Source of the DNA: Patescibacteria group bacterium
Lineage (GTDB): Bacteria; Patescibacteriota; Minisyncoccia; UBA6257; Colwellbacteraceae
NCBI GenBank assembly: GCA_023380475.1
Contig: JAMCRD010000002.1
Location: forward strand, 1 to 43,426
Length of the DNA: 43,426 bases
Direction of reading: 5' to 3'
Part shown: one piece after another, positions 13,827-41,095 of the stretch
How the letters are laid out: each line of letters starts with the position of its first letter
Numbering within the stretch: position 1 is the first letter of the stretch
Notes under the pieces: generated by a model
What the model saw: only the letters and a program-made list of their open reading frames with translations
The model's database searches: none
What the model was told of the DNA's origin: nothing
Program-made: the position numbers and the translations under genes

Positions 13827-13834
13827 AAAGGTCG
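13827..13834 (+). promoter_or_regulatory. AAAGGTCG leader motif upstream of doxX-like gene
   Basis: TATAAT (13799-13804) ... ATATAAAGGTCGCGAG ... ATG at 13857. Confidence 0.5.
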
Positions 13835-13856: not shown

Positions 13857-14267
13857 ATGTACGCTAATTTATACATAATTCTCTCCATTTGGAGTCCGGC
13901 AGCGCTATTCGTTCTGCGAGTCGTGCTTGGCGCCATTTTCGTTGCGCATGGCTGGCCGAAAATAAAGAACATAAGGCAGACGCAAATTAATTTCAGTTCC
14001 ATGGGCTTCCGTCCGGGAGCCGTCTGGGGGACGTTGATCACTCTGCTTGAATTCGTCGGCGGATTGGCTGTAATTTTGGGGATACTCACACAGCCGCTCG
14101 CTATCCTGTTTGCGGTGGAGATGCTGGTGGCAACTTTGTGGAAAATAAAGCAGGGCAAGGGATTTGTCGACGGTTATGAGTTCGACCTCCTGCTTTTGGC
14201 GGCAGCTTTGGTTCTTATAACTTTAGGCAGCGGCGCTGCCTACTCGCTGGGAGCTTTATTGTCCTAG
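13857..14267 (+). CDS. DoxX family membrane protein
   Basis: 136 aa, LFVLRVVLGAIFVAHGWPKI...GTLITLLEFVGGLAVILGILTQPLA. Confidence 0.85.
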   Translation: MYANLYIILSIWSPAALFVLRVVLGAIFVAHGWPKIKNIRQTQINFSSMGFRPGAVWGTLITLLEFVGGLAVILGILTQPLAILFAVEMLVATLWKIKQGKGFVDGYEFDLLLLAAALVLITLGSGAAYSLGALLS

Positions 14268-33054: not shown

Positions 33055-33083
33055 TTGACATGGTGTCGCATTTATTGTATTTT
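33055..33083 (+). promoter_or_regulatory. sigma70-like promoter
   Basis: TTGACA-N17-TATTTT. Confidence 0.6.
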
Positions 33084-33086
33084 AAG

Positions 33087-33189
33087 ACACTCTTTAAAAA
33101 TCAATTAACCATTAGCAAAAGGCTTCAAGTAAGCCGGATGTTGATTAAAGGTCGAACCTTAATTAATCGCCGGCTTACTTAAAGAGTGT
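33087..33189 (+). ncRNA. structured 5' leader RNA with AAAGGTCGAACCTT apical hairpin
   Basis: Outer 11-bp stem ACACTCTTTAA/TTAAAGAGTGT; inner 11-bp stem AAGTAAGCCGG/CCGGCTTACTT; apical AAGGT-CGA-ACCTT. Confidence 0.6.
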
Positions 33190-33213
33190 GAGCTAGGCGG
33201 TTTTAGTAAATGT

Positions 33214-33720
33214 ATGAATCTCGATCAAGAAAGAAAGATCAGCGCAGTGTGGGTGTTGGTATTCGTTTTAGTAGTTGTGATACTTGTAGCGATCTTTGCG
33301 TCCCTCAACAACACAAACTATGTATCCAGCGGATACTCTCCAGTTTGCGATATAGGTACTTCAACTAGTCAGATTGTGACTGCGCCGCGCGATCAGGTAT
33401 ATGAGTGTCTAGCCGAAAACGGCAACTTGTACACGAAGGACACCCAAGGGAATGTATACAAGGTATGGCCGATTTCTAGCAAATTGGACACACTGTCGGT
33501 TGATACTCTGCAATCTGTGTACTACAGAATAACCGGTAAAAAGGATGTCCATAACGATGCAAGCACAATCGCCGAGGATATACTAGCCGCCGCATACAAC
33601 GCGCCGCATGGGGCCAACATCCCGGAGATAAACGTGGATATAACCGGGACGTGGCCCAATCTGAGTGCGAGTTACGTGTATGGACCCTCGAACGCAGTTC
33701 TTCTGTACAGCTCGAAATAA
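33214..33720 (+). CDS. membrane-anchored hypothetical protein, 168 aa
   Basis: N-terminal TM VWVLVFVLVVVILVAIFASL; extracytoplasmic remainder. Confidence 0.65.
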   Translation: MNLDQERKISAVWVLVFVLVVVILVAIFASLNNTNYVSSGYSPVCDIGTSTSQIVTAPRDQVYECLAENGNLYTKDTQGNVYKVWPISSKLDTLSVDTLQSVYYRITGKKDVHNDASTIAEDILAAAYNAPHGANIPEINVDITGTWPNLSASYVYGPSNAVLLYSSK

Positions 33721-33839: not shown

Positions 33840-33848
33840 CTCTACTAT

Positions 33849-33856
33849 AAAGGTCG
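33849..33856 (+). promoter_or_regulatory. AAAGGTCG leader motif near the predicted transcript 5' end
   Basis: About 3 nt downstream of the predicted TSS. Confidence 0.5.
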
Positions 33857-33915
33857 CTTCCTGCTCAGGGCATAGTTGCAACGGGGAGCGGACTCCTTCG
33901 TTGCTTTTAAATATT

Positions 33916-34314: not shown

Positions 34315-34343
34315 TTGACTGATACCTCAAAATATGTTATACA
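34315..34343 (+). promoter_or_regulatory. sigma70-like promoter
   Basis: TTGACT-N17-TATACA. Confidence 0.65.
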
Positions 34344-34392
34344 TAATCAACTCTGTTCGTTTATAACTTATCCATCTAAAACCTCTTTGAGG

Positions 34393-34452
34393 CGTGGGTA
34401 AAAGGAGTTATTATTACAAAGGTCGAACCTTAAATGAGTTAGCTCCTCCACG
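34393..34452 (+). ncRNA. structured 5' leader RNA with AAAGGTCGAACCTT apical hairpin
   Basis: CGTGG/CCACG, GGAG/CTCC and apical AAGGT-CGA-ACCTT. Confidence 0.55.
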
Positions 34453-34458
34453 TTTCGA

Positions 34459-35007
34459 ATGAAGACGGAGGATGCTAGTAAAGATATGAAGAAAAGAATC
34501 CTTGTGTACATCCTGATAGCAGTTCTGATATTTGTTGCTGTTGTCGCTGTCAAACTTGGTCAGGAGGGGAATAAGTACAACCCACCGGTCAAAAAAATCC
34601 CGACTAACATGAGCTTCACCGGCAACGTTAGTTCGTCAATCGCCGGAGCGAGTGTGAATGTGGAAGTTCTCCAATCATCCGGGATGCTATCTGTGACAGG
34701 ACAAAAAGGCAACCAAAGCGCTATCGAGGTTTTTGGCCCGGCCGAACTTAGGATAACTTATAACATAAGCAAGAGCGGGTGCATGATTTCTAACGGTCCG
34801 GAAGATCCGCAATTCGGTTCGCCAACATTAGGCCAATCCAGTAATATCGTAGATCTTCCCGCCAATAACGGTAGCGAGACAGTTTACTACTCTTACGTGG
34901 TAGCCTGTAAAAACTCCAACGGCGGATTTACTGCCAGCAGTTCGCCTGAGGTCAATGTGTCTGTACCGAATATCTCGCAGTACATCGGGACTGGGACTAA
35001 TAAGTAG
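34459..35007 (+). CDS. membrane-anchored hypothetical protein (start may be 34486, MKKRILVYI...)
   Basis: TM ILVYILIAVLIFVAVVAVKL, extracytoplasmic beta-rich remainder. Confidence 0.65.
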   Translation: MKTEDASKDMKKRILVYILIAVLIFVAVVAVKLGQEGNKYNPPVKKIPTNMSFTGNVSSSIAGASVNVEVLQSSGMLSVTGQKGNQSAIEVFGPAELRITYNISKSGCMISNGPEDPQFGSPTLGQSSNIVDLPANNGSETVYYSYVVACKNSNGGFTASSSPEVNVSVPNISQYIGTGTNK

Positions 35008-40367: not shown

Positions 40368-40375
40368 AAAGGTCG
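40368..40375 (+). promoter_or_regulatory. AAAGGTCG leader motif
   Basis: Sense orientation, 33 nt upstream of ATG 40409. Confidence 0.5.
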
Positions 40376-40408: not shown

Positions 40409-41095
40409 ATGTTACAAAGTTGGGCTAACTTACTTTTGAATTCACTACAACAGGTATGGGGTCAGTTCGCCGTGTTTCTGGCTGATCTGGTTGAGGCCAT
40501 CATCGTTTTTATAATCTTGCTGGTTGTCGCCGCTGTGGTGGGCTGGCTGGTAGAAAAAGCGATTGACACCGTCAAGCTGGATTCGCTGTTGCGCCACGCG
40601 GGCGTTGAGGAATATCTGGAGCGCGCCGGTATAAGGCTGCACTCCGGGAAGTTCCTGGGTGGATTGGTCTACTGGTTTGTGGTGATCGTTGCGCTGCTCG
40701 CGGTGACCAACATCATGCAGGTGCCGGGATTCTCCGAGTTCCTGCAACAGGTAGTGGACTATATCCCGCTGCTCATCGTGGCTATCTTCATTCTGCTAAT
40801 AGCAGTGGTCATCGCTAACTTCCTGAGGAAGGTAGTGCACGGATCAATCATATCGGCCAAACTGCACTCGGCTAATTTGTTGGCGGGGATGACCTGGTGG
40901 ACCATATTCTTGGTCGGCCTGGTGGCTGCTTTGCAGGAACTTAGGGTTGGTGATGTCATCGCTTCATACTTGGGCTATGTTCTGCAAGGTGTTGTGCTAA
41001 TGGTCAGCCTGGCGGTCGGCTTGGCTTTCGGCCTCGGCGGTAAGGAGTATGCCGCGCATCTGATCGAGAGATTCCGCAATCTGGCAGAAAAGTAA
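40409..41095 (+). CDS. multi-TM protein, mechanosensitive-channel TM-helix-repeat-like
   Basis: VEAIIVFIILLVVAAVVGWLVEKAIDTVKLDSLLRHAGVEEYLERAGI... VSLAVGLAFGLGGKEYAAHLIERF. Confidence 0.75.
   Translation: MLQSWANLLLNSLQQVWGQFAVFLADLVEAIIVFIILLVVAAVVGWLVEKAIDTVKLDSLLRHAGVEEYLERAGIRLHSGKFLGGLVYWFVVIVALLAVTNIMQVPGFSEFLQQVVDYIPLLIVAIFILLIAVVIANFLRKVVHGSIISAKLHSANLLAGMTWWTIFLVGLVAALQELRVGDVIASYLGYVLQGVVLMVSLAVGLAFGLGGKEYAAHLIERFRNLAEK

Follow-up and report, generated by a model that had tools for sequence, protein, structure and literature searches.

A folded mRNA leader in a Patescibacteria group bacterium with a candidate non-Shine-Dalgarno initiation element

The leader and its alternative folds

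What purpose does an elaborately folded leader serve in front of a gene for a small membrane protein in a Patescibacteria group bacterium? The window analyzed here, a stretch of 43,426 nucleotides, contains an ORF for a 168-aa protein with one N-terminal transmembrane (TM) segment (33214-33720; positions refer to the forward strand of the window unless a locus is named). This probable surface protein has no Pfam match and no relative among 59 other genomes. Its gene is preceded by a sigma-70-type promoter, TTGACA-N17-TATTTT (33055-33083; -35 at 33055-33060, 17-nt spacer, -10 at 33078-33083), followed by an outer stem with the arms ACACTCTTTAA (33087-33097) and TTAAAGAGTGT (33179-33189), and by a long inner stem (P2, 33127-33180) in which AAGTAAGCCGG (33127-33137) pairs with CCGGCTTACTT (33170-33180). 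An apical hairpin (P3, 33140-33168) with AAGG:CCUU pairing and a UCGAA loop caps the structure. Promoter, both stem pairs and cap hairpin were found where a preliminary description of this DNA had placed them, as was the TT (33179-33180) that outer and inner stem have in common; the same description had noted correctly that the leader lacks a U-tract and is no terminator. It had missed the main feature, the octamer AAAGGUCG in the apical loop (33147-33154), which we found to be a 5'-UTR element of the entire order. The hairpin leader is real, yet its most important part is this octamer.

At -40.8 kcal/mol, the predicted fold of the leader is more stable than that of any of 200 dinucleotide-shuffled sequences (-27.4 +/- 3.8 kcal/mol; z -3.55). 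The outer stem had been thought to begin at the predicted transcription start; the pairing is present, but the likely start at ~33089-33091 would keep only ~8-9 bp of it in the RNA. Only in our genome does the outer-stem fold provide a near-isoenergetic alternative (-39.8 to -40.2 kcal/mol).

Among 245 genomes of the same order, a two-sequence covariance model found the leader in just one further genome, a related Colwellbacteria MAG (G017), and a GTDB-wide pattern scan returned the G017 contig alone; DNA, pattern and covariance-model searches yielded no homologue beyond it. Three weak covariance-model matches were rejected as leaders, since they lie in protein-coding-looking sequence and the stem is absent. 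In G017, the leader sits between leuS and the gene for an unrelated single-TM, proline-rich surface protein, and its promoter (TTGACA-N17-TATCGT) occupies the homologous place with the spacing seen in our genome. Retained along with promoter and octamer are P2, P3 and two further helices, P0 and P4. At the sequence level, the block AATTAACCATTAG (33103-33115; identical in G017), GGCTT, AAGTAAGCC / GGCTTACTT, the octamer (AAAGGTCG) and an AUG-proximal GGCGGT are kept; 9 of the 11 bp of P2 are identical, and the apical hairpin is present with another sequence (GAUAAAG-GUCGA-CUUUAUC). The block AATTAACCATTAG can pair with the AUG-proximal CUAGGCGGUU in our leader and with ACUAGU near the AUG in G017. 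Because a MAFFT alignment of the two leaders misplaces the apical hairpin, covariation counts derived from it were discarded. Its retention in G017, where the downstream single-TM protein is unrelated to ours, lends the inner hairpin good support. The outer stem of 11 bp was looked for in the G017 leader and not found, and it was rejected on these grounds as one half of a switch.

The competition within the leader does not center on the shared TT, as had been proposed, but on P2 and a helix that the preliminary description did not list. This helix, P4 (33165-33178 with 33188-33202; overall 33165-33202), occupies the octamer-to-AUG interval, draws on the same CCGGCTTAC arm as P2 and excludes it; in both species, the arm GGCUUACUU pairs either upstream (P2) or downstream (P4). 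P0, a small hairpin (GGCUU/AAGCC; 33121-33135), competes for the other arm of P2; its arms in G017 read GGCUUA/UAAGCC, and there it belongs to the minimum free energy structure. The P2 fold and the P0+P4 fold are isoenergetic in G017 (-38.6 and -38.8, respectively), and P2 is better by 7.5 kcal/mol in our genome (-39.9 versus -32.4). The full leader with P2 surpassed all 300 left-shuffles in our genome (z -4.5), and the P4 hairpin had z-scores of -3.2 (our genome) and -4.5 (G017), with 0 of 300 shuffles reaching it in each. The 3' arm of P4 has changed between the species, while pairing with its unchanged 5' arm is retained. A structured leader with competing folds, as originally suggested, is thus supported, but a switch between outer and inner stem is not. 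Judged from the sequences, these two leaders provide good support for two alternative folds conserved in both species, short of proof of a switch, and with a set of two the covariation is thin; P2 and P4 may truly interchange. The idea that the octamer is unusually masked in our leader was rejected, since its predicted accessibility (0.40) is not unusual against the mean over octamer leaders (0.50).

An octamer in leaders of the genome and the order

In 188 leaders taken from ~283 kb of our genome, AAAGGUCG is the commonest 8-mer, with 12 sense and 0 antisense occurrences (shuffle mean 0.31); no 8-mer count rose above 9 in 300 shuffled leader sets, and one-base variants of the octamer are nearly absent from the same leaders. 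Shine-Dalgarno words show 12:12 (AGGAG) and 13:9 (GGAGG) sense:antisense counts. Present in just ~6% of the sampled leaders, the octamer cannot serve as a start signal for every gene; the products of the genes that carry it are small and probably abundant (HU, TM proteins, L7/L12, pilin-like). Whole-genome counts of the octamer and a reversed control (45 vs 26 in our genome; no signal in several relatives) are dominated by coding DNA, which explains the weak signal, and leader-restricted tests were used instead.

Further copies in the window lie in the leaders of the ORFs 13857-14267 (octamer at 13827-13834) and 40409-41095 (40368-40375), and in that of the next ORF downstream of our gene (start 33916; octamer at 33849-33856), whose 59-nt spacer forms a hairpin (spacer z -1.9). 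In this last region (33842-33915), the octamer lies a few nt past a -10 box and can alternatively pair with an arm of the strong spacer hairpin. A second leader (34344-34485), behind the promoter TTGACT-N17-TATACA (34315-34343), holds the octamer (34418-34425) in a nested hairpin and possesses an alternative spacer hairpin (spacer z -2.5) ahead of the AUG at 34486. Its logic is similar to that of the first leader; its sequence is unrelated and its support weaker, with weak cross-pairing (z -1.65). The mechanically called ORF start at 34459 is probably wrong, as the in-frame ATG at 34486 suits the GGNGG...TAGTA...ATG context that the leaders share. Elsewhere in the genome (L030, G000:C1), near-identical hairpins (GATACTC...GGTATC) flank the octamer on both sides, so that local or octamer-enclosing pairing is possible.

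The leaders of HU genes carry the element across the order. We inspected 69 of them, 30 best-matching loci and 39 picked to spread over ~16 families, a sample that is phylogenetically non-independent within families. The exact octamer was present in 63 and never in antisense orientation (shuffles 0.16; full 120-nt windows), and GGAGG near the AUG was found in none of the 69. Outside the octamer, HU leaders are largely unconserved between genera. A -10-like box precedes the octamer in 56 of the 59 scorable HU leaders, usually by 10-24 nt, which places the octamer probably inside the mRNA. Among 40 HU leaders from outgroup families of the class, 18 contained the octamer, 7 a strong Shine-Dalgarno sequence and 15 neither; none had both. 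Within the class, octamer and strong Shine-Dalgarno sequence replace each other ahead of HU genes. In these outgroups, the octamer itself may vary; a few of the 15 leaders with neither signal hold shortened forms (AGGTCG, AAAGGTC).

In 105 octamer leaders (102 distinct), the octamer starts ~34 +/- 7 nt before the AUG when spacers are short; it usually lies about 17-25 nt ahead of the start codon. Distances in the leaders sampled from our genome are approximate, since start codons were called mechanically there. Spacers of at least 45 nt, a cut-off chosen by us, are folded (mean z -3.03, n = 23; mononucleotide shuffles), whereas shorter ones are not (+0.25, n = 82). Folding cuts the long spacers to an external length of ~19 nt, near the 26-nt mean of the short ones. 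This contrast fits an RNA element confined to the vicinity of the AUG and would be hard to square with a DNA site. HU leaders of the families f27, f13, f5 and f23 (L225, L229, L244, L251-L254) have spacers of 79-99 nt with long hairpin inserts, as if repeats were tolerated there solely because they fold.

The ribosomal RNA and a candidate partner

The 16S rRNA of our organism (L057 / L087; G000:C6:175574 to about 177930) ends in ...GUUCGUGGAACACUUACAUUU, without CCUCC. It is interrupted by at least two insertions, one of them a group I intron according to Rfam (L087:619-971), which put the true 3' end ~0.9 kb beyond the annotated model end. CCUCC was found in 0 of the 33 readable 16S 3' ends of the order (14 from our own family and 19 from 17 others; 18 families). 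Within the window, 23S rRNA starts ~1 kb from the contig end (42477-43426); the 16S is on another contig. G268, the one outgroup Shine-Dalgarno user checked, possesses the canonical CACCUCC (GGAUCACCUCCUUU), and its 208 leaders contain GGAGG in an 18:3 sense:antisense ratio and the octamer just 2:0.

The octamer was rejected as a variant Shine-Dalgarno sequence adapted to the altered 16S tail, since this tail has no complement to it; the complement CGACCUUU is absent from the 16S and from the 950 bases of 23S within the window. On sequence grounds, the 16S h26 loop, UAUCGACC, would be an attractive candidate partner, as it is complementary to GGUCGA. It was present in every 16S of the order in which h26 was read, with its first two positions varying singly, and likewise in the Shine-Dalgarno user G268, so that it does not covary with the octamer. 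Such pairing would leave the three conserved As of the octamer unexplained; the base at +9 is A in 55 of the 102 distinct octamer leaders.

Interpretation and relation to known systems

We consider it probable, at roughly 60%, that the leader of this single-TM surface-protein gene is built around a non-Shine-Dalgarno initiation element, in a Colwellbacteria-type lineage whose ribosomes lack the anti-Shine-Dalgarno. The octamer is conserved and sense-only, its spacing behaves as that of an RNA element, the anti-Shine-Dalgarno is lost and two folds are conserved; from this we infer a translational role. With the octamer, what looked like a riboswitch-like oddity would become a translation-initiation leader. 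The octamer, situated between transcription start and AUG at the usual 17-25 nt or the folded-up equivalent, would most likely help to recruit or position the 30S subunit, substituting for a Shine-Dalgarno sequence on some genes, probably ones with strong expression. Its exposure and its distance to the AUG would be set by the long stem together with the spacer hairpin: with P4 formed, it would stand an effective ~23 nt from the AUG, like in other such leaders; with P2/P3 formed, it would sit at the tip of the long hairpin with AAGG paired. More tentatively, and at somewhat less than even odds, a large Parcubacteria clade may have exchanged the lost anti-Shine-Dalgarno for AAAGGUCG, read ~20-25 nt from the AUG, possibly via the h26 loop, with some genes, including ours, controlling it through alternative folds.

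A less likely alternative is that a dedicated RNA-binding protein, not the ribosome, binds AAAGGUCG in the mRNA and regulates stability or translation. An invariant word of 8 nt whose spacing is tolerant could be a protein site just as well as a pairing site, rRNA pairing leaves the three As unaccounted for, and the occurrence on probably abundant small proteins fits. Looped-out spacers, in turn, imply a limit on the distance to the AUG that a stability element would not need, and the mutual exclusion of octamer and Shine-Dalgarno sequence in HU leaders also speaks against such a protein.

The 5' stem-loop of the Escherichia coli ompA mRNA stabilizes the transcript of a surface protein. Our leader resembles it as a 5'-proximal hairpin on a surface-protein mRNA whose outer stem can begin a few nt from the likely transcription start; that the leader merely stabilizes an abundant mRNA is nevertheless improbable, because G017 lacks this 5'-terminal stem, and what is conserved, octamer and P2/P4, lies internally. 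A ligand-sensing riboswitch for one surface protein, with P2 versus P4 as its expression platform, has slightly poorer prospects still. Conserved, mutually exclusive folds that are isoenergetic in G017, and helices that exclude each other near the initiation region, recall translational riboswitches and ribosomal protein leaders. Unlike these, our leader has no Rfam match and occurs in only 2 of 245 genomes of the order; the downstream genes code for unrelated surface proteins, neither metabolic nor transport functions, and beyond stems and octamer there is no conserved core the size of a ligand pocket. Rfam 15 returned only rRNA and tRNA matches across the whole window at the gathering thresholds and chance-level ones in the leader at E<=10 (the best a microRNA model far under its cut-off), which agrees with the earlier statement that the leader matches no recognized riboswitch class. 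Least probable is a DNA-level feature (operator, REP/MITE-like palindrome or transcription factor site), which the near-perfect inverted repeat at 33123-33184 might suggest: REP and MITE elements come in several copies and this repeat has a single full one in the 600-kb genome (G000), the octamer is strictly sense and, in nearly all scorable HU leaders, lies downstream of a -10-like box, and spacer folding is an RNA property. The leader also differs from intrinsic terminators and attenuators in that no U-tract follows P2 and just UUUU (33201-33204) follows P4.

Returning to an initiation element as the favored reading, the order-wide leader word, exclusive with the Shine-Dalgarno sequence in HU leaders, would make start-codon finding without an anti-Shine-Dalgarno testable in a very large uncultured group. 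Prediction of start codons and of genes in that group would benefit, and our leader would offer a natural example for asking how RNA folding controls such an element. A search of the open-access literature returned no description of the octamer and no relevant paper joining Patescibacteria or Parcubacteria with Shine-Dalgarno; its novelty is therefore provisional, as subscription papers and preprints fall outside that search. Like a Shine-Dalgarno sequence, the octamer is a short purine-rich word ahead of the AUG on probably highly expressed genes; it differs in being an exact 8-mer usually 17-25 nt, not 5-9 nt, from the AUG, in tolerating looped-out hairpins, and in that the 16S has no CCUCC tail and the leaders no tail-complementary motif 5-9 nt before the AUG. 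Loss of the anti-Shine-Dalgarno is documented in Bacteroidetes, Mycoplasma and Carsonella (PMC6107228, PMC10783764); the relevant text of these two articles does not name Patescibacteria. No strong motif matching the variant 16S tail is reported for such bacteria in the relevant part of the survey literature (PMC6107228). Our organism resembles the Bacteroidota type of initiation, as described there, in having no CCUCCU in its 16S and no Shine-Dalgarno sequence in its leaders, and departs from it in possessing a strong, exact and order-wide motif.
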